Assembly (NCBI RefSeq): GCF_964355755.1
Contig: NC_092679.1
Coordinates: 3,968,001 to 4,032,000, forward strand
DNA length: 64,000 nucleotides
From: Antedon mediterranea
Taxonomy: Eukaryota > Echinodermata > Crinoidea > Comatulida > Antedonidae
Direction of reading: 5' to 3'
Position numbers and translations under genes: made by a program. Below the pieces are notes generated by a model, which was given only the letters and a program-made list of their open reading frames with translations, was not told where the DNA came from and did no database searches. Of this stretch, positions 4,411 to 29,608 are shown in pieces. Every line of letters begins with the position of its first letter. The first letter of the stretch is position 1.

Positions 4411-5228
4411 TAAAGGGTAAAATGGTATAAAGTTTCTTATTTTGTTTAGGGCCTATTATAAAATATACACATCTGCAACAAAAATAACCCCACTTATTTT
4501 TTGGAGAGCGGTGAGAAGAGAAACAACGTCATCATCAGAGTGGTGCCAAACACATTTTCGTATTAGGTTATAAGAAAGCTACACCCAGATATTGGCGGAA
4601 CCTTGCAGTATTTTGATTGGAAGAATTACATGACGATCACTTACCACCCAATTGAATTCAATTACTGATCCATCCATTTCTTCTGAAAATTTAAGAAAAA
4701 AAAACAATGTTTGAAACAGACAAACTGACTAAAAATAGAGCGTACCTCTAATTATTGTATTTGTCCACGAGTGAAAATTTTTTTGTTAAACTTATGGTTA
4801 TAATGCAGTGCCTCAAAAGTGGCAAACTCTTTATTAAGCTTATTACTAAATTAAATTATAGGCCTACAATATTTGATTTCATTATGATGACCTCAGTATA
4901 GATGTTAATTCGATAGTGTCATCCTCCCTACATAACGTTATCGCCAATAACATTATGATTTTTTAAATTAAAACTAACGGACACCAAGTTTAAACAGCTT
5001 TGATATTTGTTATGAAAACGTTTAAAAAATTGACCTATACTTAACTCTGTAAAAATATACACAGCTGGTAACTGTTGGCTTCCCATCCCTGGGATTGCTC
5101 TAACTATGGCAATCCCCTGCAGCTTCAAACAAACTTAAAGTTTAGCGCGGCTACAATTCGAAATCGGCAATTAATGAAACCTTATCTCAAGTTTAGTGCG
5201 GCGAATTCAACCATCACGTTCGGTAGAA

Positions 5229-5551
5229 GCGGCACGCGGGACTTAATAGACAGCAGTACTCGAAAATCATTAAGTTTGGTGCGCGACACGCATTTTGACT
5301 ACAGTACTCTAAAACTATCAAGTTTGGTGCGCGGCACGCATTTTGACAGCAGTACTCGAAAACCATCAAGTTTGGTGCGCGGCACGCATTTTGACAGCAG
5401 TACTCGAAAACCATCAAGTTTGGTGCGCGGCACGCATTTTGACAGCAGTACTTGAAAACCATCAAGTTTGGTGCGCGGCACGCATTTTGACAGCAGTACT
5501 CGAAAACAATCAAGTTTGGTGCGCGGCACGCATTTTGACAGCAGTACTTGA
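5229..5551. repeat. 48-bp tandem repeat array, about 6-7 units
   Basis: The anchor TTTGGTGCGCG occurs at 5275, 5323, 5371, 5419, 5467 and 5515, exactly 48 bases apart, with units nearly identical. A diverged precursor copy lies just upstream (5140-5235). Because 48 is a multiple of three and the unit lacks stops in several frames, open frames appear on both strands; I do not regard them as genes. Confidence 0.95.
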
Positions 5552-7222
5552 TGCGCAGCACTTTCTCGACGGTGGTATTCAATATATTTTCTCACATGCC
5601 ATATCTTAACTGCATAATGTTATAATTATCAACACCTGGAATAATCATGTGTACATTCGGACAAATATACAATATATTTGATTTGAATATTAACAGGCAA
5701 TAAAACAGGTCTACTGCAAAAACACAAACATCTGTATCACAACAAACAACATATGTTTACATTTCGTTTGTTTAAGAAAGAAAACTTATATTGTTAAAAA
5801 CCAATGTACATTCTCGCCGGAAAATTATTATTTGTATTAACGGTGATGATGAATATCATTATGTCTCAGAAAATAGGCCTAACAATTACGGTAATCACGA
5901 ACATTTTATTTTCAGTCAATCACAAATCTGTAAATTATACCATAATAAAACTGTTTTTGCTTTATAATATCAACATTTCTAATTATAACAATATCGATAG
6001 AAAAAACCGGAGGGTTCACTCTGTAATCGCTAAATATTGTTCTGGTGTGCACCATTCGCATATGCGGTTGCCTTGGCAGGACATTTTGTTGCATCGATTA
6101 TAAAAATGAAATAAAATTACTGGCATTGAATTGTTAAATGAATACAAAAAAATTCCACCTGCAGTGTATTAATACAACAAACATTTAAAAAAAATAATTC
6201 CGTGATTAAATTTTTAATAATGTATGGAAGGTTGTTATAGCAAAAAACAAACAACAATTTATAGGCCTAGTGTTCGCTTGATGTGACTTTTGTCTTGTCT
6301 GATTTTTGTCTGGATATTATTATGATTACATTCACAACCTTTTAGTTTAAAGAAAACCAGACTCAATATAAAAAGCACTAAACAACGCAGTTTACTGATG
6401 ATACACGTAGACATGGAGGTAGGTCTATAATACATCCATGGATATACAGACAATACAGCATTAGTACTGAGGAAATTTTTAAAATGTACATTAAAAATAG
6501 ATATACAGTACAACAAATTACAGTCACAAATAAATAACCAAATATATAATTTCATATCAATACAATTAGTCAACAACATTTACAATATAGGCTTGAAGTT
6601 ACCATTAGTAATACAGTTACTGAATTGACAGTGTCCGAAATTGATAAGTTTAATAAAATCATAACACCGAGAGGGCTACACAATAGAACATAGAATATTA
6701 TAAGCACCTACTCATAGGATCTTTTAGGATTTTAGAGCTTTGATACACAAGAATATACGCAGTGCGCGTATCGACGATATCTACGCGTGCTACATTCGTG
6801 ATGATATCTTTACGCGACAACCGCATCACAGAGCGCAAAAACTACCGTAATATTAATTGGGCCTTATATATCGACCTTTTGAAATCATCTGTAAATTTAA
6901 CATTTCACTTGAAAGTTAAAAACATACAATACAATAAGTGCACCCCAAAAACATGACTTCATGAAACTTAGTAGGCCCACTGGGTCTGTCGAAAAATGTA
7001 CTAATTTAATTGCAATTGCCCAAAACAGTTATTGATGTATAATATTGTAGCGTGATGATTAAATTAATATAGATTTGTACGTAAGTATTTTAATCTCATT
7101 TAATGTTTAATATAATAACATATTCCATTGCACTCGTGTAATTAAATCAAAATGGGGTAATTTCGTTTGTTAAATTATTTGCAGGGAAAAACATTCCACG
7201 TGAAATGTTTAATAGAATAGAA

Positions 7223-7390: not shown

Positions 7391-8344
7391 GATTAACTTT
7401 AATATTAGGAGTTTCTTTCTCGCCATTACAACACGTTTTGTGAGTTGTTTAATTGTAGGATTGAACGCATTTTATTATTCAATGAAAAAAGAATCACCCA
7501 AAAAAATAGCATTTTAGCAGATCTCAGCGGCGCATTCCCTTATTTCACACTCTATACCACTCCAGCAAAACCCGTAAAATAAATAAAATGGTTTAGTTAT
7601 GTACATAAATATAAGCAGACACATTAGAATTTATACTATTACTACTGTATTTACATCCATGAGGTATGATTAACCCATGGAGCTATAAATAGCTCCATAA
7701 TTAACCCATACTAAAATGCAACAATAAAGCCTCTTGATACAGGAAGAATATCAGCAAGTTTTGTAGCATAAATAATTAGATAGTAAAGTTCTACCAAATG
7801 GTGGTACCATTGTCTTAGTATCAGGTTGAGCATATACTTATACTTTATAATTCATGCACAGGTACTAATAACCAAGGCACAAACCGCTTCATTTGCAATT
7901 CAAACCTCATGAAGAGAACAATCTACTGATTATTTTTCATATCATGAAGATGAAACAAAACTCTTATATTAAATACTGCATTAAACAACTGCTCCATGTA
8001 TAAACTTAAGGCATCAACTGATTTTAAATACAAGTCTTTATAATCTTTTAAAATAGTGGTATGAATACTACATTAAATAGAAGGTTAGTTTGTACGAATT
8101 TAAGAGTGTATCAAGGTATATTCATTGAATATTATTTTAAATACATTAAATATCAGCTTACAAAAGGAATGTACGACTTTCAGATTAAAGTTAAGAAAGG
8201 GTGTTCATAAATTGCACACAACATTGGACATATCTACTGTATAAACAGTCCTAAACTACTACTGTATAACAAATAAAAATGTTCAATACCATACAAATGA
8301 CAAAATTGTCCCACTGATGTCAGAAAGATGAATATAGAAAGGGA

Positions 8345-8650
8345 CATGTTCCATTGATGTCACATTGGTGATAGAAGTGACATGTCCCATTGATGACAGA
8401 AGTGACATGTCCCATTGATGACAGAAGTGACATGTTCCATTGATGACAGAAGTGATATTTTCCATTGATGACAGAAGTGACATGTTCCATTGACGACAGA
8501 AGTGACATGTTCCATTGATGACAGAAGTGACATGTTCCATTGATGACAGAAGTGATATTTTCCATTAATGACAGTGACATGTCTTACTGACCGACAGAAG
8601 GTACACGTCTTACCGATGACAGAAGGGACATAACCCATTAAATGACATGT
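8345..8650. repeat. 25-bp tandem repeat array, about 11-12 units
   Basis: The unit TGACATGTTCCATTGATGAC followed by AGAAG recurs head to tail, with variants (TGATATTTTCC, GACATGTCCC) and decaying copies toward 8650. Because 25 is not a multiple of three, the minus-strand open frames through it show a 25-residue super-period and overlap in all three frames, which marks them as artefacts. Confidence 0.93.
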
Positions 8651-8850: not shown

Positions 8851-9221
8851 TAAAATATGTTACCTCAACACAATGTCGTATAACTTATTTAAACATAAAG
8901 ATTGCATTTCATGTTTATATGTAGTGTAATGAGCATTATGTATAAAGTGGGGTGAGAATATAACCTGTTGTGTACCTATTCACCTCAGTGAAAATGCAGC
9001 AAAGAGGCATATCATCACTAATCTTCCAATCAAAATGGTATTGGTAAGATCTGTGTTGTTTTTATAAACATTTTGTTAATAAATTCCTTACCAATATCCT
9101 ATAAAATCCTTCATAAAAATACAACTGAGACGATTTTAAAAATTACTTGTAATATAAAGGATAGATTCTGTTTTGAATAATCGATTCCACCGTGTCGTTT
9201 TTCTTCATACCATCAAACCAA

Positions 9222-12200
9222 GCTAAACCCAGCTGACCCTTCATTGATGGCAATCACTAACGACCTCTGGAGTTTCTCGATGGTGTCATAGGTAGGTAGG
9301 CAAAGTTGGTTGAAGCTGCAAATATAATTTTAAAATAGTTTTTACAAAAGAATATTGAATCCTATCAAATAAAAGGTTTTGTGTGAGCTGTTTGTTAAAT
9401 TGTGTGAAAAATAAAAAAAATCATTTCTTTACAACTTTTTTGCATTGTTAAAAAATATGGACATTTGTCTATCAATTATTTGAGAGATACAGAGAGTTTG
9501 CAAGTCATACATAATTGTACTGGGAACATTAACAGTACATTTAAAAATCATACCATATTGCATTCAATATGGCAGTAAAACTGGCAGCATTAGTTGTGCT
9601 TTCATGTTTGTTCGTTATAAAAATATTTGCTATTTACGCATCTATACACATATATCAAAATGAATACATTTGAAAACCACCCCGGATTGGGTGGGTAGTG
9701 GGTAGTTGCTATGGAGTGGATATCTTTGCAATTATAATATATATTCAATATTCCTCACCATGTATGAGCAGTGGGTAATGTATTATGAGCTGGCACTGCA
9801 ACAATTTGGAAATTTGGTTTCAACTGTGAGAAGCCTCCAGATGAAAGCTGAGCACATCCAGTTGTAAATTGCAGCAAACGGGACATCTCTTCTTGAGTGA
9901 AACCACTGACAACCGTCCAAAACCAATCTAATGTCTAAAAAAAATATTTGTTGTACATTCAAAATAGTTATATAACTATATAACTATTATATTATAGGCA
10001 ACGTCTTATATAATTCAAGGTGCTCTCCAGGTGGAATGCCATCTTGAGATGAGTAGTAGTAATTACTACAGTTTTTGTTTATTTGTAATTAATTTATATG
10101 CAATTTTACTTTCTATGGACCAGAGATTCCAAAATAAAAGATCGAATAAATGAATAACTGTAAAAAAAAATAAATATATCCAACTGTATTTTAACATAAA
10201 TAGATTATTATTAGATTACGAATTACAGGTAATCTACCCTATTGTTGATTAAACCTTAAACCAGTTACAGCAATTCATTCATTTACAATGAATTGAAATA
10301 AACTAGGTTAATAGGTTAAAAACAAGACACTTGACCTTTACACAGAAACATGTAAGGATGTAACAATAGTTCATGCCTTGAACTAGTTATGTCAAAGAAT
10401 AAAATATTTACACTCTAGTTAGGCTATTAGTTGAAAAGCGTGTATTTTTTGTTGTCTTTTTAGGACAAATAGTAATTACTATTTGTAAAATAATGTCACT
10501 AAAAATGACGTCATTTTACAAGTACATACTGTAGTTTTTACTATTTTTGATATTTAGTGTTACAACACCTCTAAATAGTAGGTTATATAACCGAGTATAG
10601 TATAATGGTTTGCCCATAGTTTAACCAGATAATAGGAAAATCGCAAGACACAGTGTATCTATATCTCATTACCTTGCTTCCATCAGGTCCATTCCAACCT
10701 GCTGCTATGTGATGGCTTCTCAAGTCAGCAATGTCAAAAGAAGATGTTCCGCACATGAGCAGTTCAAGCTCGTTCTCATCAAACATACTCAATAGGGAAT
10801 CAGGAATAAGGTCATTCAAACCTGAAAAATAGAGTTTCAATTTACACAAATCAAACAAAAGTCATGCTGTACAGTGGCTGAAGCGTGTTTTCCAGTTAAC
10901 GTTAAGTTGCTTTAAATTGACCAGTTAACGTTAAGTTGCTTTGAATTGACCAGTTAACGTTAAGTTGCTTTAAATTGACCAGATTCAATGCTTCTACAGG
11001 ATAAGAAGGCAAAAATCAATGTTAAAAAGTAAGTAAGTTATAAATTATAATACAAAAACAATTTATTATTGATTATTAATTACTCAAACTCTTAAAATAA
11101 ATGCATTGAAAATGGATGATTTTCATTTTTCTCCTTTTTCAATAATAATGGCAGTTTGTTATAGTGCCTACTATCCACTATATTAAGCCTTTCAGATCAT
11201 TATTTACTTTAACCTTTTAGCCCTTAGCAAATAAGGAATGCTTGTCAGTTTCAGCAAAAAATAGTTTGAATAAAGAAATAAGTGTGGAAACAGGAAAGTA
11301 TTAGTTATTTTACAAGGTATATATATATAATGGATTTCTATAAATACTTTGAATGATTGTTATTTCTAGGAAAAGTTAGGTAGTTTATCACAGCCTTTCC
11401 TGTGCCTACTGAATGTTATATATTGTGGTAGGAAGAGTAAAGACTATGGCACTCAATTAAAATGGTTAAAGATATAATTGTCCTTGAGCTTGTCCTTTTT
11501 AGATTTTTTGTTCACACACAATAGTTATTCATTTTGACAAAATATTTCATACAATTTACCAAATAAAGTAAAGCTCATCGTCTTAAAATCAATGTCTTTT
11601 TTATAAGCAAAATAGAGAGTTTCTAATTTTGGTTTTGGTGAATTTGAATAATACATTTTGTCAAATGAAAGGACTATAAAATAGAGTACCTTTAGTAAAT
11701 GCTTCCAGCTCCCCTTCAACACATTTACTTAGTTTGTGCTCAGCTAAGCAATTCAAATACTGTATCTTGTTGCTTTCAGTAACAGGGATACCAGCCCCAT
11801 CTGCTTTTAACTCAACAACCTATATATTATAGTAAATTAAATAATAATAAATTAAATATTTTTAAAATATTGTTCATGTAAACATGATCAATTTGTGATA
11901 AATTGTGTAATTTAAAGAGTAGCATATGAGTTTATACAGTTAATAATAATGGCTGTACAGTATATTTAATTTATAACATAAAAAACTTAAATTCTAAAAA
12001 ATGTTTCTTTTTTGATAGATTAGTTTGTTTCTCTGCATTTATATATCTAAAATGTCAAATATTTTTTTTCGATGTGGAACATGAAATATTTATCCAAAAA
12101 ATTTATTAGAAATTGTCATGAATACTAGATGTAATAGATCTTTGACAAAACATTTAAAATGAATGATTTATCTACCTTATCTACTTGCCCATGATCGTTA

Positions 12201-15200
12201 TAGATCTCTTCTGAAAAGGTCAAACCAAGGTCGGCATCTATCTTATTATCTAATATATACTTGCCCTTAGACATGAACAATTCTGGATCATCTGTTTCAA
12301 AGTACTGTTAAAAAAACAAATTGAAATACATAGTATTATATAACTTCATTTTAAGCTCTGTCTACACTATCAAAATAGTATAAACCAAATATGGTAGTGA
12401 TATGACATCATCATGTTCATATATGGGCACATCAACATTTTTGTCACATAATGTTTAATAGTGTACACAAGGCTAAACAATATTCATTCTGTTAAAAAAA
12501 ACTGTTTGGTCAAAGATGTGCAAATTTGAGACAAGATGTAGTCTGTGTTTTTTGTTTTTATTTATATCAGTTGTTTGCCTTCATGGACTTCCTTGGTAGG
12601 TACAAGTAAACAAGTCCATACAGTACAATGCTAGTGACAACAAGGTCAAAATCATTTGAATAAAAAATCTTCAACAAAATATCTAAAGCCTTGTCTACAC
12701 TATCAAACTTGATGTGACAAAAAAATGTGTTGTGCTCATATATGGACATGATGATGTCATATCAATACCATAATTGGGCAAATCACTACTATATTTGGGC
12801 ACATCACACTTTTTTGTCAAACTAGTTTAATAGTGTAGACAGAGCTTTATACATTATAAATCAAATAAAAAAAATCATCATCATACCTTATACGTTACTC
12901 GTAAGCCAATAAGTTGTGCGAGAAACGACCGTGAGAAGCGTGCACGGACTAGTTGAGTATAGGAAGGTCCTAATGATGATTCGTACAGACACTTCCCAAC
13001 TATCTTGCCAGCAAATTCATAATACTTTAACTTAGACAGATGCTGTGGCCTATCTGCATTCGGATGAACCTATTATGGAAATACTTAATGTCACTCAATC
13101 AGACAGTAACAAGAAAACATTTTATTTTTTAACTATAGTATTTTAAAAAAAACAATACCATCTACCAATAATGAACACTTTTGGCCTAATTCTGGTAGTT
13201 CGAATGTGTATTTAATTAGGAAATAGGTTTGAGACATTTCAGACCTAAAAAAGTTTGAATTTAAAGGAGTTTTCGTTCCAGTATTGTGTCGGTAGAATCA
13301 ACTTTATTGTGACCTTCCTACAGACTATGCTTTAATAAAGCATAATCTACCAAAACCTCTTCATCGTCGCAAGTTCCACAATCAACAAATTGATTATTAC
13401 AGAACTAGGAGACATACTAGACGGCCTACTAAAGTAGTGGCTGTGTTGACAGTGACTGTGTGTATTAGTACAGAGTAACCCCCTACTTGTCTCGAAAGAT
13501 GTACTAGGTTCTTTAAAGTGAACATGAGCATTTTGTGTACACGGGACCTACGATTAATTATAGATTTTATCCGAAAAGACTCTTTTTACCACCAGAACCA
13601 TGGAGCGAGTGAGGCTCGAACCCTTGCCGATATTATGACTACATTTTACGGCTCCACTGTCTTAACCACTCGCCCATGTGTTGCACACTGTAAGTGTGTA
13701 TTTAATGATCTGCTGTTTATTAGAAACAGTACAATTTGTACAAGGGCTATCCTTACCAATCCTTGTGCGTCGTCTTTAAAACTTTTGAAGAGTTCATTCT
13801 CTGATTTGAATAGACTGTCACACACAATACCAAACCATTCACGAGATAAGCCACCCCAATCCAAACCTTAAATTAAAAAATAAAACATTACATATTGTTT
13901 AAATTCTTGCCGAAATTGGGATTTCATTGAAATATAATATATTATAAAATCAATCAAAAGTATTTTTACCTTCTTCTCCAAGGAATTTGATTTCAAATTT
14001 CTTGCACCAGTCTGATGTAGTAAAGGATTTAGTTGCTTTCATAGACTATAAAAAAAGATATAATGTAGTTATACATTGAGGGAAGACATACAGCACAAGT
14101 CCATAATAGGCTAGGATTGTTACAGAAAGGACACTTCCATAAATTAGGTACAGTTTGAGTCATGTAATTAATACACAGCATACTGTACAATAATTAGAGT
14201 GAGTCAGACAATATGGAAGTTACTAACAATTTTGAGGTTGATTATTGTAAAGCTTGGTTCCCACTAGGACTCAAGACAATGATGATACTTTAAAAAAATT
14301 ATTAAAAACACATTTATTCATTATGGAATATGGAAATCATGAAGTTTTCCAAAGTTTTTTAGAATTGTTTAGTATACTTTTTCCTGGCCAGCATTATCTT
14401 TGGGGTGCCTCTGTCTTGGTTGTTGTCTCTGAGCACCTGGTCGTCTGTGGCAAGGCAAATGTGTATCCTGCTCCTTTGTTTGGTCACCTAGGTAGGGGTC
14501 CAGGACCGCGACAGAACGAGAACAGATGGGGACCCTCCAAAGAAATTGCATTTTATTTGTCAGGCATTTGTATGATTTGTTTTTTATTTTTTAAATGCAC
14601 CTTGAGCACTCTTGAGTGGTATGTGCGCTATAAAAATCTTATTATTATTATTATGTAAGGACAACATAAGTGTTTTGACCAATCTTAAATTAATGGACCA
14701 TCCAAATTGTCGCTTGTGATTGGTCAACTCACTTGCGTTGCATGTACGTCCTTTGTTGTTACTTAACCAAGTAAGCCTTTTATGCTAGTATACATACACT
14801 TTCAAGTATTGAGTATCTGTCAATATTCAGGTGGATAATGGTACGAGAGTTCCGCTTGTGTTTATTACTAACTTCCTGATAAAAATATTCTTGCTTTGTT
14901 TTAAATGTTTCCGAACCACCTAAAAAGATAAGAAAAGATAGTTTATTGTACAGTTTAAGTGTTCTGAATGCGTTTTTAATGGTAAAAACAAATGTGGACC
15001 TTTGGAACTCAAAGAAAGTCTTGGTTTGGGAGGGAGAGTTTTCAGAGAGTCTGGTATTGGCAGAGTTGAATTAATCATACTTGATTTCGAAGCCACATAT
15101 TTCAAGACATTTTTACTAAAATTGGACATACTGTAGATATCATATAACTGGTTGAAACGAGGCAAGCAACAGATTAAAGCGAGATAAATTGAGTAGTTAA

Positions 15201-18200
15201 TTTGAAGAGAATAGACCAAGAGGGCGCCAACTAACTTTTAGTATGTAACACGTTGTATACTAACTAAACTACTTATTTTGAAATTTGAAGGGTACTTGTA
15301 AATCTGTGAAATATAATAATAATAATACGCATAATATAGTATTTTAAACAAAAAATGAATAAGCATACCAATATTCTTGAGTAGAAATTTTGTATACGTA
15401 GCAGCTAGTATATCACGATTCTCACATGCTAGTGTGACTGGGTCTTGTCCACTGTCATCTATAGTAAATTCAGGACTATCACCGTTCCCGTGAAAATAAA
15501 ACTGAAATATTTAAAAATTATTTTTAAATCAATCATGGTAAATAATTAGAACAAATCTTTCTTCTGAATTTGTAATGAATTCATTCATTCATTCATCAGT
15601 GGAAAATTATTATTTCCATTTATATTCATTTGCATATAAAATAAACATAGAAATTATGTTTGAGATGAGAAATGATTAAATATTTTACTCTGATTGGAAA
15701 AATTACTTAAGTAATGTGTAGAATATTCAAGCAAATTTGTTTTTTATTTGCAATTTTCTGATGCCTGTTCTGTAAATATTGTTTTAAAATTTAGTAATAT
15801 GATGCAATATGAAACACAAGGATAATAAATACAGAGGTTTAAGCTTGGTTCCCACAAAGACGCAACACAAGCAAGTTGACCAATGACAAGCGACAATCGA
15901 ATAATCGATTGATTGTGATTGGCCAAATCCCTTATGTTGCGTTACTTTGTGTTTCTAGTGGGAACCAAGCATTAGACAACTGTAATCAAATTCGAATTAA
16001 GTTACCTTAGTTGACGGGCAGACTCTAAACGTATGTAAACGCTTTGGGATAATCCTCAGATAGAATTCTTTGATTGTAAGTTGCTTTGGTGAGATGTAGC
16101 AAAAGACTTTCTTTGGTTTACGAAGTTTTTCGCTGTTGGCTTCTAAAAGCCGAGCCTCGTAATAACTGTCCATATTCTTCTTGCTAACCGTTTTATTGAC
16201 CTGTGCCATGGCGTCCTCTAAAAAAAGAAAATGACAAAAATGCTACAAAAATGATCATAGTGGAATATAAGTTTCAAATATGTAATCTCCTGTGGTTGTA
16301 TTAAGGCGCAGGTGTAAAAAGGTCCTTAATGATATACTGTACAATCTACAGAAATCTCACAAGTAAATTATCCTGGGCTACCTAGTATCAAATGGCGACG
16401 TAACTTGTTACAATAGGAACGCTGATTATTTTCTGCAGATAAAGACTTGGCTTCATCTATTAATATGTTGATACTTCATTAGTAAATTGTTGTATAATAG
16501 CTTTAACATTTTTCATCAACGAATCCTAATAAACAAAATTTAGTTGGGTATGTCTACAGTAGAGTAACGATCAGAGAGGTTTACCTTTAAAGCTCTAAGA
16601 GCTTATTGGGTTACCCTCTTTCTCTTATCCTGTCATTTGTATATACCTGTATTTGTATTATTGTATTTGATGAATGAGCAACAAAAACAACATTCAAGGA
16701 ATAAGCTGATTTAATTTTGAAGTGAGCCCTCCCAAATCTCGTTACCTGTTAATACTATGATGTTGAATTCTCCATTGGCAAACTGCTGATCCTTGTAGCT
16801 TGCTACAGCCTTGAAACAGCCTGGCTGGTAAAGCTTGATGAATAGAGAGATGAGGTTGTCATCTTGCACAGTCACATCCCACAATGGATTGTCTATTTCT
16901 GATGGGCTAGAATCAAGCTTTGGAAAATAAGAAATAAGATGAAATAATTTAAAAAAATTTAACTGTTTATGTAGAGCAACTTATTCTCAATAAAAACATC
17001 TTTAATGTAGCTGATAATCCTCCAAATGAATATATAATCCCAGCATCCAATATAAGACCACCTACAAACTTGTAGTACAATAATAATAAAAGTAATAGCT
17101 ATATACGTTTGGTAAAAGGTTACTTTATTTTGTTGTATTAATTTGTAATGTACCTGAGTAATGTAATTTATATTATTTTATAAATACTGGAAAAAAACAA
17201 ATTGTAGTACAATCAAACCTTTGGGCCCCACAAAAGTGTCCCTTTAACAAAAAAAATAGGTGTTCCTTAAAGGTTGGAAATACTGTAGTATTCAAACATT
17301 ATATACACATATTACACCTTGTTCATTTCACAGATTGTGTGGGCGTGTGTAATAACAGTGTTCTCTAAATAATCGTGTTCTATTGTATATCCATTTACCA
17401 AGAAACTTACAGTTGTAACTTTCATTGCATATTCTTTAATACTTTCTTTAGATATTCGTTCCTTGCACACGTTGCCATATTCATCACAGACTTCTAAATG
17501 TAAGGCATGCAGCTCATCTTGTCTAACTACTATGGTTGAACTATGGTTTACAAAGTTGCATTTTGCTGGCACTATGCAACCTACAACAAAACAAAAGTAT
17601 TATAGATGTATTATTCCCCTGAATACATTTTTTTTGTTGAAATGCCATTTTAATGTCTTAACTTCACCAGATGCGCACAATGAATTAACTTGACATAACT
17701 CAGTCACTATGATACTGCATTACGGTTCAACCCCTTATTTGGGACCAGTGGTCTCTAAGGCCTCTATTTAGGGGACACTCTTATTAAGTTGAAACTTTCT
17801 TGGGTTTGGAAAGTTTTTGTTTATATGATTATACAGTTATGTAAAGAAGATATTTTTGTTAATGATGTAATGTTATAACATTTTAGGGGTGGTATCTAAA
17901 AGAAGACAAACCTGGTAAAAACTCTTTCTTGTATGGATTTTCTGAGATAGGTTTACTGTGTATTTTAACATAAAATTTATAAATCCCCGATCGTCTAGTA
18001 GTAAAAGACACCCTAACTGCATTATTTTGATCTTCACATTTTTCAATTTGACAAGGTACAGACTGGCTTCCAACATCGATACTTGCCAATACCTCATCAG
18101 CTGAGCTAATTTCAAAAACTGAACCCCATCCATGGAAAAACTAAAACAGAAACAAATTATGTCAAAAAATAGCAAGCAGCTATTTCACATGATCTAAGCA

Positions 18201-21200
18201 TTAATTACTTGCAAGTGGGGTGATTTAGCTGTTTTAAATGTTAATGTAAATTGACATGTAATTAAGCATAGCTGCAAGGTAGGTTTTTAATAAAAGAAAT
18301 TTAAATATCAACAGTTAAATGTTGTTCTGCAATTCATCAAATGTAGGGATTGTATTGATTACCAGTTCACGATTTTAAAATCAATGCAAGATAATTCACA
18401 TATTCATTCCTCAGTTTATGATTTGTACACCTTCAGTCAATCAATCAAATAAACCTAAATATTTGTCTTCCACTATCAAACTACTGTAGTTTGACAAAAA
18501 AAAGTGTGATGTGCCCAAATATGGTAATGATGTGCTCAAATATGGCAGTAACATGACATCATCATATCTGTATATGGGCACATCATACTTTTTGTCACAT
18601 AAAGTTTGATAGTGTAGACAAAGCTTTATACAATTATTACTCTTTTTTTCAAATTCAAGAAGCAATTAACAAATTTTATATATTTTTTAAAAGAAATCCA
18701 AGTCGACCTTAATGTGAGGAAGCCATTAAAGCTATGTTTAGCCTGAACCCGAATTCGGTGGTGGCCTCAGAAAGCTCCTGGCAATGCTACACTATCAAAC
18801 TAGTTTGACAAATATGGTAGTGATATGCCCAAATATGGTACTGATATGACATCGTGTCCATATATGGGCACATCACATTTTTTTGTCACTGTACAGTTTG
18901 ATAGTGTAGACAGAGCTTTAAACATCACCCACTTTTACAATTTTATTTTTATTATTTTATTAAGCCACCACATTGGAAACAGGGCTTAGTGTGAACACAC
19001 CTTTAAGGTATATTCAGTCTTATTTTAGTTTATAGTAACAAAAATTAAGCTTACCTCAACTTTAAAGTTTTCCATTCTTCCAACAATTTGATTATCTTCC
19101 CAACCCCATGTTATTTTGGATTTGTAAGGATCAAGAAAATTCCTTTTATCCCATAAATTGTTGATATTACGGTTTCCCAAGAGCAGATATGAGACGACAA
19201 ATATCATCAACAAAGCAATTACTGTAAACAAACAAATTTGATTTTTAATTACTGTAGTTTTTTTATGGTTTAAAAAAAGATAATTGCTTCACATTAAAAG
19301 ACAATTAACAGGCCTGGTCTTTTAAGGTGAGCGAGTGCAATCACTCACCTAACACACTCCTAAAATGGCCTTGAGGAGTTGTGATTTACAACACGCTTAA
19401 ATTTGGTAAAACCAAAATACAAACAGCCCCTCTGAATGTATTAAGGAGTGCAATTTGTAGCACACCTATAATTTTCAAATGACAAGGCCTGTTTAACTAG
19501 TACAGTAGTACGGTCATTTTTATTGCGGTTGTGAAAATTTAAAACACTAAATAGTACAACAAAGCCACTACCTTTTTGGGTGTAAAATAACATTTAAGGA
19601 ATGACATTTGGGTTATATAATCATAAAGCTCTGTCTACACTATCAATATATGGACATGTCATATTTAGGCATATCACTACCATATTTGGGCACATCACAC
19701 ACTAGTTTGATAGTGTAGAAATAGCTTTAGTATGGTGAATCAGTTTAATACTTACAATAAAAAAATGACCCTTCATTTTCATCCACTTGTTTATCTTGAA
19801 CTATTAGCTTTTTCCATATGTTGACATCTTTATTTTCTTCCTTTAAAACCAATTGTATTCGTTTTGCCTCATTTTTAAGTACATTAAAATCTTCAGGTGA
19901 AATCCGCAGATCAATGGCTGACGAAACCGCTATTAAACGTAATTGTTCAATGTTCCAATAGCCTTTGGATGCCAGACTGCATAAAATATATGAATACTTA
20001 TATTAATATTAATTGATGTTACAAAAAAGTGTGATGTGCCCATATATGGACATGATGATGTCATATCACTACCATATTTGGGCATCACTACCATGTTTGG
20101 GCACATCACACTTTTTTGTTAAATTAGTTTGTGTAAACAGACCTTTAGTAATATCAAATTATAGATTGCCTAACAAAAATACAGCATTTGTAATTCAAAT
20201 TTTAGTTCCAAGTTAGTAAAGAGTTCATTATATATTAGATGAGATACAATGATGAGACAATTATGAAAATGTCCTACTTTACAGATATGGAAATTGAGCA
20301 TAAAGATATCACAATAAATTATGTTAAATCTTATTACTGTGGAACATCGTGCAATAATAATACTGTATTATAGACTTTATAGTACTGTAGATTTTTATTA
20401 AATAATTATTTAAAACAATTTTAATAATTCCTCAATGCTATTTTATAATTCAAAAGGAAAATTACTAAAAAAATTTCCTGAGAAAACTGTTCCATAAAAC
20501 GCATCTCACCATATCTCTATTCCTGTTGTACTACTGTGAGATTAGGCCTATAAAATACTCAGTCATTCTATACTACTAATATTAATAATACTTTAAAGGC
20601 ATGAAGAGAGAATGCTAAACCGCCTGAAGCAATTACACAGTACTAGTATGCTGAAAATATATATAATAAAGATAAACAATTGTCATTTGAATCAATGTGA
20701 TATACTGTACCTATGAAAACAATGTTTGAGACCAATGCCTTCAAGCCATTGCAGAAGATATGGTATGTTCTGTAGATGAGCTATTCCTTCTTTTACTTGT
20801 GTTTGTTCTTCAAGAAACAAATCTGTAAAAGCTCTATGTGTCAGGTCAACTTCTCCGCAGTCCTCAAATGACCTACATCCTAAATATTCGTAACAAAAAA
20901 ATCATTATGCGTTATTTTACATTATACATTTTCTCATTTAACCAAGGCATAACTATTTTTGGATGGCTGGAAATAATAAATCCTACTATAAACTTAGAGT
21001 AGGCCTAACAACATTATTAGCCATATAGCCAGCTTAGTTAGGCTAACTAGTAACTAATGTCTCTTCAACATTCATCATGCTGCTGCGTTTAAATGTAGCC
21101 TACCCGAAAAATGTAGGTCTAGGCCTACGCCTATTCTATTGACATTTCATTATTATTATTGTTTGTTTAATAAATGTTGGGAATTTATTATAAATTGATT

Positions 21201-21466
21201 GTGCTAATTTGCACAATATATACTGTGTGTTTAAAAAATATATATGTAAATTGATCAATTGATGAAAAATCAGAAGCAAACTCACCAACTGCATGAAACA
21301 CATGCTCGTAGGCCACTAGTTTCTGGTCGATAAGCCAGTTTCTAAATGACTTCTCGCCTTGTCCATCGGCTTCAGAGTTCACAAAAAAGGGTGCTAGGCT
21401 AAGCTGAAAGGTGATCAAAAAGAGGGCGGGGATGATAAAATGTTGTACGATTTTTCCTCTTGCCAT
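9222..21466 (-). CDS. AREL1: AREL1-type HECT E3 ubiquitin ligase, complete, 18 exons, about 971 aa
   Basis: Exons 5' to 3': 21466-21286, 20879-20711, 19976-19756, 19221-19055, 18140-17912, 17580-17318, 16917-16746, 16217-16006, 15501-15369, 14919-14798, 14045-13970, 13866-13757, 13069-12887, 12304-12176, 11819-11690, 10821-10673, 9934-9759, 9315-9222; all phases agree. AREL1 transfers ubiquitin from E2 to targets; the human protein ubiquitinates IAP antagonists such as SMAC and HtrA2. Order: signal-peptide-like N-terminus (1-30), a helical region absent from human AREL1 (about 35-185), a membrane segment (IALLMIFVVSYLLLG, about 191-205), filamin-like repeats (about 230-470), the family block KPKKVFCYISPKQLTIKEFY (about 495), and the HECT domain (about 625-971) with LDWGG, FDENELELLMCG and catalytic HTCFNQLCLP. 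Cys941 is encoded TG|C across the last intron. As read the protein ends INERVSWV; one base fewer would give the family-like ending EGSAGFSLV. Confidence 0.95.
10892..10980. repeat. 29-bp tandem repeat, three copies
   Basis: CCAGTTAACGTTAAGTTGCT followed by TTRAATTGA repeats at 10892, 10921 and 10950. It lies in the AREL1 intron just upstream of the exon ending at 10821. Each unit contains the palindrome GTTAAC. Confidence 0.95.
12353..12475. mobile_element. Palindromic MITE, family M1 (TIR AAGCTCTGTCTACACTATC)
   Basis: Starts AAGCTCTGTCTACACTATCA and ends AATAGTGTACACAAGGCT, the inverted match. The interior carries the family block ATATGGTAGTGATATGACAT and ATATATGGGCACATCA. Lies in an AREL1 intron. 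Confidence 0.85.
12685..12848. mobile_element. Palindromic MITE, family M1
   Basis: Left end AAAGCCTTGTCTACACTATC, right end AATAGTGTAGACAGAGCTTT. The interior reads in the opposite sense to the copy at 12353, only 210 bases away in the same intron. Confidence 0.87.
13305..13690 (-). mobile_element. tRNA-derived SINE, family A, minus strand
   Basis: On the minus strand the head reads GGGCGAGTGGTTAAGACAGT (A-box-like) and then GGTTCGAGCCT (B-box), followed by a body with CATCTTTCGAGACAAGTAGG. The same head and body occur on the plus strand at 49046-49370. It lies in an AREL1 intron beside the exon 13757-13866. The 3' limit is approximate. Confidence 0.8.
14250..14765. mobile_element. MITE family M2 interrupted by a LINE insertion
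   Basis: The left end AAGCTTGGTTCCCACTAGGA (from about 14252) matches the M2 copies at 15841 and 57136. The interior of M2 (GCTTGTGATTGGTCAA, CTTGCGTTGCATGTACGTCC) resumes near 14710-14755. Between the halves lies the LINE 3' fragment, so the LINE inserted into the MITE. The right terminus is eroded. Confidence 0.65.
14270..14656 (+). mobile_element. 5'-truncated non-LTR retrotransposon (LINE) 3' end
   Basis: The translation includes LKKLLKTHLF, the usual last segment of reverse-transcriptase ORFs of CR1/L2/Jockey-type LINEs. About 300 bases of 3' UTR follow, ending GTGCGCTATAAAAATC and (TTA)n. The 134-codon frame across it is not a host gene. Clade assignment is uncertain. Confidence 0.7.
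15841..15972. mobile_element. MITE family M2, complete copy
   Basis: Left end AAGCTTGGTTCCCACAAAGA and right end TTTCTAGTGGGAACCAAGC are inverted repeats. Inside are GTTGACCAATGACAAGCGAC and its inverted counterpart GATTGTGATTGGCCAA. The element is about 130 bases and could fold end to end. It lies in an AREL1 intron. Confidence 0.88.
18473..18628. mobile_element. Palindromic MITE, family M1
   Basis: From CCACTATCAAACTACTGTAG to GATAGTGTAGACAAAGCTTT. The interior holds AAATATGGTAATGATGTGC, a second ATATGGCAGTAACATGACAT and ATATGGGCACATCA, that is, two copies of the inner motif. Confidence 0.85.
18786..18918. mobile_element. Palindromic MITE, family M1
   Basis: From TACACTATCAAACTAGTTTG to GATAGTGTAGACAGAGCTTT, with inner TATGGTAGTGATATGCCC and ATATGGGCACATCACA. 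In the same AREL1 intron as the copy at 18473. Confidence 0.88.
19625..19728. mobile_element. Palindromic MITE, family M1, short internally deleted copy
   Basis: AAAGCTCTGTCTACACTATC at the left, GATAGTGTAGAAATAGCTTT at the right, about 100 bases in all. It lies just downstream of exon 19756-19976 of AREL1. Confidence 0.85.
20015..20145. mobile_element. Palindromic MITE, family M1, left end missing
   Basis: Begins inside the element (TTACAAAAAAGTGTGATGTG) and has the inner repeats CCATATTTGGGCATCACTA. The right end is decayed (GTTTGTGTAAACAGACCTTT). Confidence 0.75.
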
Positions 21467-24400: not shown

Positions 24401-24663
24401 CACAGGCCTATGGAGCTATACTATGCCCCTCTCCAGATTTTTATAAACAATCTATGTAATTTATGCATTTTGAAACTATTTTTTATTTTTTGAAATTATC
24501 TTGCACTATTATTGGTCATTAATTTTATCGTCGACTTCCTCGTGACATGACAATGTTCAAGCATTTATTAATAACTCCCTACATCATAATCGAATAACCC
24601 AGGAGTACACAGTAATTTAGTTTGCCAAGCCTAATCTTTTTGGAAATCCGGATCATTCGCAGG
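21467..24663. promoter_or_regulatory. Divergent 5' interval between AREL1 (-) and the carotenoid oxygenase (+)
   Basis: The two start codons face away from each other across about 3.2 kb, so both promoters must lie here. I see no exon and no clear TATA box. The TAGGCCTA octamer and close variants are frequent (near 21571, 23486, 24153 and 24405). A TGACGTCA-type CRE-like site lies in the stretch near 23228-23236. The 22000-23150 part is plain AT-rich sequence. Confidence 0.4.
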
Positions 24664-27600
24664 ATGTTGCTTCGTAACAGTGGGCTATTTTTTCGTAGAT
24701 TAGGCATAGCAAGCATCATGTCGACTTCTATTAATGAAATGTTAACAAAGACTTATTTGAAAGATAATCCAACCCCAACAGAGGCTGTAATCGAAGGTAA
24801 GACTCAACTCAGCAAACCGTGTGATGACAGGCTGGGAATGTATACAAACATGGGAAATTCCCCATGTCGCAACAGTCGACCTTTACACTACAGTAGTAGT
24901 TATTAGGCCTGTAGTATTTAGTAATCATAATAATAAGATGATTTGTTCATTATTTTCTTATCTGAGTAGCCAACGCAATAAATGTGGGGGAAAGGAGGTG
25001 CATCACACAGTGCAATAGGCCTCTCTGTAGATGTGACGATGGAGACTGTGCTGGAGGAATTCCCAATGTCGCAAAGTTGACCGGCCCTATGTGGGCTACC
25101 TTTCATAGTAGTTCAAATTAGGCCTGTAGTATTTAGTAATCATAATAATAAGATGATTTGTACATTATTTTCTTATCTGAGTAGCCAACAACGAAAGTAA
25201 ATAATTTGCATACAGTTAGATGCCTATTTTATTATTGTCTGATACTAGCACTGATCCAAATCAAATCTCCTAAACAACTCATCAACATTGTTTTATTTTA
25301 TTAAATTATCTGACATTATTAATTTAGGATGTTATCTCTCTCTATATATGTTAGGAGCGTTACCACAATGGCTTAGTGGGGAATTGCTTCGAACTGGTCC
25401 AGCCATATTCGAGGTTGGCGGCCAAAAAATGAACCACTTCTTTGATGGATTTGCAATGTTGTTACGATTCACAATCAAAGATGGCAGCGTTAAGTATCAA
25501 AGTCATTTTTTGAATAGTGAGACTTACAGACAATCTTTCAAACAGAATCGCATCGTTGTGTCACAATTTGGTACCGCATCCTACCCAGATCCATGCAAGA
25601 GTATTTTCCATCGTTTCATGTCAAAGTTTTCGGTTCCTGAGCTGACAGACAACGGAAATGTGAATATTATTCCTATTGCTGATGAACTATATGCGTCTTC
25701 AGAAACGCAGAACTTGTGCAAAATTGATTTAGATTCAATGACAAATACAGAGAAGGTAACTTAACAGAGCAATAGTTTTATCAGTGGCGTAACGCAGAGA
25801 CATGAAGCCCCTGGTTAGGTAACCCCTCCAAGTTCCAAGGCTGGGCGTTTGAACCTTTTCGTCATATTTGAATGCCTGTTTTTTCCTCTAAGCACTGCTC
25901 ATGGGCCCCCTGAGCGCTCATAGCCGTTACGCCACTGAGTTTTATAATACTCTATACGGAGTATATTGTTTTTGTATAGTTCTATTTTTATATATGATTT
26001 TTTTATATGAGGGCCCCTTGATTGTCAGCATATTATTGCTGTTTAGGGTCACCCTCTATTATAACAAATAGTAGATATTAAATATGATTAAAATTCAATG
26101 CAATTAATTTCTCTCAGAAATCCTGAATCCCACCCCCTAAAAATGTAGTTGGATTATTCAAACATTGTCTAAACTTATTTTTATAATTCTTAAGAATTTT
26201 GTATTTGATGTTGAAATTTGTACTTTTTATTGTTTATTGTAAGCTGATGTAATCTCATTCTTTTTTAATTGCACCCTAGTTTGAAACCCCATTTTATCAT
26301 TTTCTTGAATCATTGTACATACTATTATTTTATTTGTGATTTGATGAAGAAATGTATTTGTATTATTCAGATACTGATATACTCAGTCATATTATAATAA
26401 TTTTTTTTGCTAGTTCATGATTTGATAAATTATTTTTAGATTATCATCTATTTTATATTTTTCACAGGTAAATATTTTTCGCAGAAATAACATAGCTGTG
26501 AATACGCAGACAGCGCATCCACATGTTGAATCTGACGGGACTGTCTACAACCTTGGAACAGCATTCTCTGGAAGAAGTTGCTATAAGATCGTCCGCTTTG
26601 ATGCTCAAAAGAAAGGTTTCATACTTGCTCAAAATGAGCATTTTTTTAAAAACTAATGAGCAAGTCTCAAGACCTAAAAATTAAATTGAAATAGTAATAT
26701 ATGAAATTTACTAAAATGAGGTAGAATCGTAACGTTTCAGGCAATTTCATACAATATAAATGAGTTTTTGACCTGACCTGGTGTTAAAATATATTAAATT
26801 TACCTGCATGGAGTAAATTATAAAATTTGAGATAATTTCATGTAATAAAAATGTTTATAAATCCAATTTACTTGGTTATATTTGCATTAATATTATATCT
26901 GTTATATGATTGAGAGTCATCTAAACAATTTGTCCTATCTACGGTAGGTAAAAACTTTTGACACAACTGTTTAACTGACTTGTGAATTTCCAGTTCTTAT
27001 GGAGCATATCATTTTAAACTACAGTATATTGTCCCCCTGAATTTTGTTGAATATGCCATTTAATGCCACACATCAACCTTAACTAAAAATTGGATAATAA
27101 AAAAAATATTTACCTGAAAAAAATGTAAATTTATAAAGTTTGTTTTGTCTCTTTATAAGTGAAACCATTATTTTTGTTCATTTTTCTTCTACAGAAGTGA
27201 ATAACTTGATTAAAACTACAAAATGGTCTTTCAGGTCTGATTTTATTAATCTACATTGTTCATGTTTTTTGGGAACAATGTATCTTTAAACTATTTTGTT
27301 TTTGTTTGTGTCACTAGAATCAGGGCCAACTGCGTCAGTGGTTAGCACCATACCATCATCATCAGGACGAAACCCATCATATTACCACAGCTTTGGAATG
27401 ACTGAAAATTACATCATCCTGATGGAATACCCGTTTATCGTCGACGTCCTATCCTTAATCATTTCACAATTTACGGGAAAAACGTTCTTCAACACATTGT
27501 CCTTTGACCAGGCCAAGCCAACGTATATCAACATTATCGACAAGAAGACGGGTGAAACTGTTGTCAAGCACAAAGCAGACGCCATGTTTTCATTTCATCA

Positions 27601-29608
27601 TGTTAATGCGTTTGAGAAGGATGGTCACATCTTCATGGACCTTCTACATTATGATAACATCGATATTTTTCATAAACTATTCCTTGAGAATATTCGAAAG
27701 GATGATTTAAATGAAATATATGCAACTCCAAGGCGATTTGTTTTGCCCCTTAAAGTAGAAAAGGTTTGCTAATTGTTTCATATATTATATTTTTCAGGTT
27801 TTTTATTTAGATTTGTATCTTTACTCTTTATTGAAAAAAAAAAAATCATTACTAAAGAAAATAATAAAAGAACAAAATCATAATATTACATTAAGAGACT
27901 GATTGATTTCAACCACTTAAGAAAACATATTCATTCATTTTTACAAATAAAACAAAAAATTCAACCACAAAATAAAATATTAATTTAACTTGGATCATAC
28001 CATTAATTTTGCCTTCAAACAATTGAATGCATACCGGGGACGAGACAACGTAAAATAAGATAATACCATAATGTTATAAACAAAAGAGAGGCTTTCCACA
28101 CATAGTCAAAAAGTCATTGTTTTTACTTTTTTGTAGGATTCTGCGACAAATGGTGAATTAACTCTTCCTGCTGGTACGTCCTGTCGTGCTGTTGTTCAAG
28201 ACGATGGAATGGTCCATTGTCACTCAGAGGTTTTAATGGATGTTCGTAAGTGGAATAATGCTGTAAACATTTTTAGATTAATCATCTTTTATTATGATGC
28301 ATAAATGCTAAAACAACACAACAGTGTTTATTTATTTAACTTTCACCATTTCTATATCGCTTTAAAATTTTAAGATGATGCTTAATGTACAGTTAATCAC
28401 TCTTATAAATAAATACAGGTATTAAATTCACACAGTGTATATAATCTCTCAAGTTTAAAATCATTTTGTGTGTCAATGTTTTGTTGTTATTCAAATTTGT
28501 CTTTCATACTCTAGGCATTGAACTTCCGCAAATGAACTACAAAGAATACAATGGCAAACCTTACAAATACTTTTATGGAGTTAGTGCCGGATTCAAAGAG
28601 GTAAGAACGATGCCCCCCCCCCCCCCCCCCTTATGATCTATCAAACACACACCTATAAAACTCCATAGAACAGACTTCTATTATCGATGAGACACCCTTA
28701 TTCACTGTTCAGTATCCTCAGTGGTGTAATGCAGAGGCCTGAGACCTCCGGTTTAGGAACCCTAAGTGGCCCTCCAACGCTGCTGGAGTCCGGGTGTTTT
28801 TAACCTTTTTACAACATATTTTAATGCTTGTTTTTTTCCCTGGTCACTGCTCATAAGCTCCAGGGCCCCTGGGTCTAGTCAGTGAGTGCTCAAAGCTGTT
28901 ACGCCACTAAGTATCCTATATATGTTAATCTTTTCTTTTTATAGTTACTGAAAGTTGATGTTGAAAATAAAACATCTGTGAGGTGGTTCGAAGAAGGATG
29001 CCATGCGTCTGAACCAGTGTTTGTTGCAAACCCAAAAGCAAAAGAAGAAGATGATGGTATGTTCCGCCTAAAATATTTCTGTATTTATCTTATCCTGATT
29101 ACCATAACAATAACAATCAAACATTATATAGTACCAATTCCAATCATGATCAAAGACGCATTGTGTCCTGAAATTTGCTAAATAAATGAGTTTTTTAATT
29201 AATCTTAATGAGTCAAAAGTAGGTGAAAGTTTTACAAAAGGAGGGAGTTTGATCCAAAGAGAGGGTGCAACAAAAGAAAAGGAGCGTCCATCGTAAGTTT
29301 TAGTCCAGAAACGGGGAACAGATAGCAATGATAGGGAGCCTCTGCACAAAGGGCTTTTTAAGATTGTTTCTGAGGAGGAAGGCTCAATATCTTTGATCAC
29401 CATGCCCAGAATATTTGTACTTATTATATTAAAATGTTATATTAATATTCCAGGAGTGGTCTTGTCAACTGTTCTAGATTGCCGAGAAGGAAAGCGTCCA
29501 TTTCTGCTTGTCCTCAATGCGAAGACTTTTAAAGAGGAATGCAGAGCAGTGGTACCAGTTGAAGGATGGGCTTATAGTTTACATGGCCGATTTGTATCAA
29601 AATTCTAA
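24664..29608 (+). CDS. Carotenoid oxygenase (beta-carotene oxygenase BCO1/BCO2 family), complete, 8 exons, 529 aa
   Basis: Exons: 24664-24796, 25355-25755, 26468-26615, 27318-27763, 28137-28245, 28515-28600, 28945-29056, 29454-29608. The family are iron(II) enzymes that cleave carotenoids with oxygen to apocarotenoids or retinal. The four histidine motifs of the seven-bladed propeller are present: AHPH (195-197), YYHSFG (His251), FHHVNA (321-322) and LHG (His522). Other hallmarks are [35 protein letters not shown] and the EEDDG block. Length matches the family (about 520-580). I chose ATG 24664; its first 20 residues ([19 protein letters not shown]) are basic and hydrophobic like a mitochondrial presequence, which would favour BCO2. 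A second ATG at 24718 would give the cytosolic start. Which of BCO1 or BCO2 it matches cannot be settled by eye. Confidence 0.94.
24840..25191. repeat. 215-bp-spaced partial direct duplication in carotenoid oxygenase intron 1
   Basis: A block of about 130 bases ending ATTAGGCCTGTAGTATTTAG then TCTTATCTGAGTAGCCAAC occurs at about 24840-24972 and again at about 25055-25187. The last 70 bases are nearly identical; the first part is diverged. Confidence 0.85.
25782..25937. mobile_element. hAT-type MITE with perfect 8-bp target duplication, family M3
   Basis: Terminal repeats CAGTGGCGTAACGC and GCCGTTACGCCACTG. The flanks are AGTTTTAT at 25774-25781 and again at 25938-25945, an exact 8-bp duplication as made by hAT transposases. 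The element is 156 bases and codes for nothing. It lies in intron 2 of the carotenoid oxygenase. Confidence 0.93.
28613..28630. repeat. Homopolymer of 18 C, twelve bases into intron 6 of the carotenoid oxygenase
   Basis: The donor GTAAGAACGATG is followed at once by (C)18. The length may be unreliable in the assembly. Confidence 0.9.
28719..28909. mobile_element. hAT-type MITE with perfect 8-bp target duplication, family M3
   Basis: Ends CAGTGGTGTAATGCAGAG and GCTGTTACGCCACTA. The flanks are AGTATCCT at 28711-28718 and AGTATCCT at 28910-28917, an exact 8-bp duplication. It shares interior words with the copy at 25782 (AACCTTTT, ATGCTTGTTTTTTTCCCT, AGTGCTCA). It lies in intron 6 of the same gene. 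Confidence 0.93.
29185..29403 (-). mobile_element. LINE reverse-transcriptase C-terminal fragment, minus strand
   Basis: The minus-strand translation holds [40 protein letters not shown] and a following KKLIY, the standard C-terminal end of CR1/L2/Jockey-type reverse-transcriptase ORFs. It is 5'-truncated, sits inside the last intron of the carotenoid oxygenase and is opposite in strand to it. Confidence 0.82.

Follow-up and report, generated by a model that had tools for sequence, protein, structure and literature searches.

An amino-terminal extension with SAM-like repeats on the membrane-anchored HECT ligase AREL1 of the crinoid Antedon mediterranea

A stretch of 64,000 nucleotides from Antedon mediterranea (contig NC_092679.1), referred to here as the window, carries on its minus strand a gene for the HECT ligase AREL1. 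The first-pass annotation read this gene as starting well upstream of the membrane segment near which the human protein begins, with a signal peptide and a SAM-like helical region. This raises the question of whether the additional residues belong to the ligase, which fold they adopt and on which side of the membrane they lie. The gene model was derived from splice sites and homology in the genomic DNA of one species and comprises the following features, with positions given in the window:

21466 to about 9205-9210, minus strand: AREL1 gene, 18 exons encoding 943 residues, all donors GT and all acceptors AG, phases consistent
21286-21466, minus strand: exon 1, start codon, hydrophobic ER-entry segment and first portion of SAM-like repeat 1
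21368-21466, minus strand: signal peptide or signal anchor, residues 1-33, from hydropathy and the -3/-1 rule by eye
20711-20879, minus strand: exon 2, remainder of SAM-like repeat 1 (residues 40-98 overall) and beginning of repeat 2
19756-19976, minus strand: exon 3, remainder of SAM-like repeat 2 (residues 99-165 overall), acidic linker and the first membrane-segment residues, FFY
19055-19221, minus strand: exon 4, bulk of the membrane segment (residues 188-206) and beginning of the filamin-like region
17912-18140, minus strand: exon 5, filamin-like repeat (Pfam Filamin)
9205-17580, minus strand: exons 6-18, remaining filamin-like region, lysine-rich segment and HECT domain

The coordinates that had been assigned to the first three exons were correct to the base, with GT donors, AG acceptors and phases 1/2/1, and the estimate of about 190 residues upstream of the membrane segment is borne out by the finding that these exons encode residues 1-190 of the 943-residue protein.

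The HECT end is, by sequence comparison, that of AREL1. From the filamin-like region to the C-terminus the protein matched human AREL1 (6jx5) with an E value of 5.6e-150, whereas the second-best family, HUWE1, reached 5.8e-60 in a comparison that covered the HECT families with a solved structure; no other HECT ligase compared came as near to the HECT domain as AREL1 did. Pfam HECT matched with an E value of 1.7e-74, and the catalytic cysteine was found in the C-lobe at position 910 of 943 (AHTCFNQLCLP), at the same distance of 34 residues from the end as human C790 of 823. The Pfam Filamin match in exon 5 had an E value of 1e-5 and, at 26.7 bits, lay 0.2 under the cut-off of 26.9. The filamin-like region between the membrane segment and the HECT domain aligned with human AREL1 and is directly preceded by the single transmembrane segment at residues 188-206. 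Human AREL1, also named KIAA0317 or FIEL1 (6jx5 and 6loh represent its HECT end), thus has in common with the crinoid protein the membrane segment, the filamin-like region, the HECT domain and a lysine-rich KPKKV(F/Y)CY(I/V)SPK segment. It differs in that its 823 residues begin within the membrane segment, whereas 187 residues precede this segment here.

Several further features of the gene and its surroundings could be read from the window. In human AREL1 the lysine-rich segment at residues 346-360 drives condensates (2025, PMC12864862). At window 16125-16080 and 10760-10700 (minus strand), the lysine/tyrosine-rich segment reported for phase separation of the human protein is conserved as KLRKPKKVFCYISPK, but the reported V-ATPase-binding hinge, GTGDIS in human (PMC12864862), reads GTSSFDIA. 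The AREL1 introns contain copies of a short inverted-repeat element, TAAAGCTCTGTCTACACTATCAAACT...GTGATGTGCCCAAATATGG, at 20011-20129, 19624-19729, 18498-18593 and 12678-12855, which probably represents a MITE family. Exons of a calmodulin gene were recognized by their EF-hand sequence on the plus strand at 1870-2912. Short tandem-repeat arrays at 5214-5619 and 8283-8583 have open frames that give repeated peptides on either strand (SSLVRGTHFDSSTRKP; HVTSVINGTCHFCHQW); these arrays are probably non-coding.

Exons 1-3 are open throughout their 571 nt. The start ATG lies at 21466-21464; nine bases upstream, at 21478-21476, a TGA stands in the same frame. In all three exons only the spliced frame is open, every other frame containing 3-10 stops. 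The spliced frame also had the best codon score in these exons, in a range equal to that of the known AREL1 exons; the score of exons 1-3, taken alone, is within the range of chance open stretches. The case for their link to the ligase comes from exon 4. Its own frame holds no ATG from the preceding stop to midway through the membrane segment, so that coding sequence is required upstream. The exon 3 donor reads GTAAGT in a phase matching exon 4, and exon 3 closes with the codons for FFY, with which the membrane segment becomes complete. Human AREL1 starts with MFYVIGG, which aligns as FFY/LIAL over the joint between exons 3 and 4, FY/LI facing the FY-VI of the human sequence.

These arguments from the genomic sequence favor exons 1-3 as part of AREL1, which would thereby receive its start codon and the beginning of its membrane segment. 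Alternatively, the three exons might form a separate small secreted-protein gene terminating a few codons into intron 3 (...SFFYCKY stop), with AREL1 using a different first exon; read-through past the exon 3 donor does meet a stop after three codons. We consider such an arrangement improbable, however, in view of the perfect GTAAGT donor in the phase needed by exon 4 and of the FFY residues, which complete the membrane segment as in human. Moreover, the divergent neighbor seems to begin near 24.6 kb on the opposite strand, so that no other same-strand gene is evident close by. The exons found at 24616-29600 on the plus strand, divergent from AREL1, read like a carotenoid oxygenase of the RPE65/BCO type. 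Relatives of the extension were found neither in plasmids nor in viral contigs nor elsewhere in the 354-Mb genome.

With exons 1-3 assigned to AREL1, hydropathy peaked at residues 11-29 and 188-206. The first segment (residues ~10-29) reached 2.08 over 19 residues with basic residues ahead of it, and the second a mean of 2.55. The N-terminus consists of MARGK, a hydrophobic core and NSEA/DG, the best-looking cleavage site being after residue 33 (-3/-1 rule by eye); the alternative site, SLA/P, has a proline at +1. An N-terminal hydrophobic segment is therefore present, as had been proposed, but the signal peptide suggested for it, if cleaved, is not distinguishable from an uncleaved signal anchor. 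Either form would place the extension in the lumen. The proposed membrane anchor could be located by hydropathy at residues 188-206. Its flanks are acidic on the N side (DENEGS) and basic on the C side (NRN..DKR). Human AREL1 resides in the ER, with its transmembrane segment at the extreme amino terminus and everything else in the cytosol (PMC12864862), so that hardly any of the human protein is on the lumenal side. Taken together, hydropathy, flanking charge and the human topology indicate that residues ~34-187 should face the ER lumen. We regard as highly improbable the reverse case of a tandem SAM extension in the cytosol, the first hydrophobic stretch being unused as a signal and the transmembrane segment reversed or not inserted. 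The SAM domains known so far are mostly cytosolic or nuclear, which would fit that case, as would the proline within the hydrophobic stretch. Against it stand the hydropathy of 2.08 over 19 residues at the extreme N-terminus with basic residues ahead, the positive-inside rule and the cytosolic HECT end of human AREL1.

Two stretches of the extension had been singled out for their SAM-like spacing. Both show the W-L...L..Y/C...F/L pattern. Repeat 2 (residues 99-165) matched Pfam SAM_1 with an E value of 0.0018 and 19 bits in context, and with 0.00028 and 21.6 bits when the tandem region was used alone; the match is under the curated cut-off of 23 bits and covers the first half of the domain only. 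Repeat 1 (residues 40-98) matched no Pfam family even at an E value of 10. The profile check suggested in the first-pass annotation thus gave SAM_1 for repeat 2, below cut-off, but nothing for repeat 1. A profile derived from 20 SAM exons of the crinoid genome gave scores that 9 of 5000 shuffles reached for repeat 1 (p ~0.002) and 15 of 5000 for repeat 2, and with hhalign 0 of 150 and 1 of 150 did so, respectively; since the regions had been picked by eye ahead of testing, these p-values are flattered. When all 64-residue windows of the protein were scanned with the SAM profile, the top scores all fell inside the extension. In pairwise tests the closest sequences to both repeats were several SAM exons of the crinoid itself, with best z values of 4.4 and 5.1. 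The spacing noted earlier is consequently real and the second stretch is upheld, whereas the first draws weaker support, from our own profile tests. A divergent SAM domain is probable for repeat 2 and possible for repeat 1. An origin of the two repeats by recent duplication was discarded, their mutual similarity not being significant (111 of 2000 shuffles).

Structure models were of low confidence. AlphaFold run without an alignment gave a pLDDT of 67 for both repeats together, with repeat 1 modeled as one long first helix unlike a SAM domain, and a pLDDT of 55 for repeat 2 alone, with a helix order that fits SAM. Foldseek returned few and insignificant neighbors for the poor repeat 2 model, mostly SAM domains (EphA2, p63, EphA6/Caskin1 and tankyrase); in a second look, SAM-domain entries made up 8 of the 10 neighbors listed, none of them significant. 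HEPN proteins, Bcl-2 proteins and designed bundles appeared in the fold search with the tandem model (Z up to 5.3) and were taken as generic helical matches of a poor model. Even if the extension exists as modeled, belongs to AREL1 and faces the lumen, it might be an all-helical module of another sort, with repeat 2 as its only true SAM domain or with none. The Pfam match to half of one SAM below cut-off, the single long helix of repeat 1 and the lack of a significant match in the fold search speak for this, while the pattern shared by both repeats, their top rank when the entire protein was scanned for SAM and the predominance of SAM among the weak fold neighbors speak for SAM domains. We consider another helical fold unlikely, although it carries appreciable weight.

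To our knowledge, the STIM proteins are the main other case of SAM domains in the lumen. STIM1 and STIM2 have in common with the layout predicted for the extended AREL1 a signal, a lumenal SAM domain, a single transmembrane segment and a cytosolic working part, as well as the ER as location. They differ in having one SAM domain where two SAM-like repeats are seen here, and the HECT ligase replaces their cytosolic part. Unlike in the EF-SAM of STIM, Pfam found no EF-hand family in the extension. A STIM-like SAM domain by sequence, tempting by eye, was rejected, with shuffle p values of 0.41 for repeat 2 and 0.085 for repeat 1. Two adjacent SAM repeats are also present in AIDA-1/ANKS1B and in Caskin, and the best PDB sequence match of repeat 2 was the tandem SAM of AIDA-1/ANKS1B (2kiv), at a non-significant E value of 0.51. 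These proteins, however, are scaffolds with ankyrin repeats and are not known to be lumenal.

We favor, with a probability of roughly 0.6, a single-copy AREL1 orthologue whose tandem SAM-like module would lie in the ER lumen and cluster or recruit the ligase. The N-terminal hydrophobic segment would direct the nascent chain into the ER, so that residues ~34-187, with the two SAM-like repeats and the acidic linker, would come to lie in the lumen; segment 188-206 would cross the membrane, leaving the filamin-like region and the HECT ligase in the cytosol. The lumenal repeats would most likely bind one another or a lumenal partner. Association through SAM domains is seen in tandem SAM proteins, AIDA-1 among them. 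How many ligase molecules the ER membrane contains, or where they lie, could then be set from the lumen side, comparable to the clustering through the lumenal EF-SAM of STIM1. The lumenal SAM of STIM1 helps to hold a resting state, and this state is released on store depletion (PMC11506743). As for the earlier proposal of a lumenal or N-terminal module on a membrane-anchored HECT ligase, gene identity, extension, anchor and second SAM-like repeat are in its favor, and the first repeat is its weak part.

In the open literature searched, we found no SAM domain in AREL1/KIAA0317, no SAM-HECT protein and no paper on AREL1 in echinoderms. A survey of animal HECT ligases from 2010 described domain layouts as identical or nearly so within each subfamily (PMC2837046). 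A mussel AREL1 gene model has 511 residues (PMC11353290) and is evidently incomplete. The extension may be widespread outside vertebrates yet undescribed, and its restriction to "this animal" in the first-pass annotation would then be too narrow. Human AREL1 builds ER-lysosome contacts (PMC12864862). More speculatively, and in our estimate with a low probability, AREL1 might ancestrally be a HECT ligase that senses the ER lumen, a STIM-like tandem SAM controlling ligase clustering at ER contact sites, with the sensor half lost in vertebrates. If the extension is ancestral, its absence from vertebrates would be a loss, which bears on the position of the human start codon with respect to the ancestral coding sequence. 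A folded lumenal module in an orthologue would, if confirmed, imply that control of the ligase from within the ER is possible or existed in the past.
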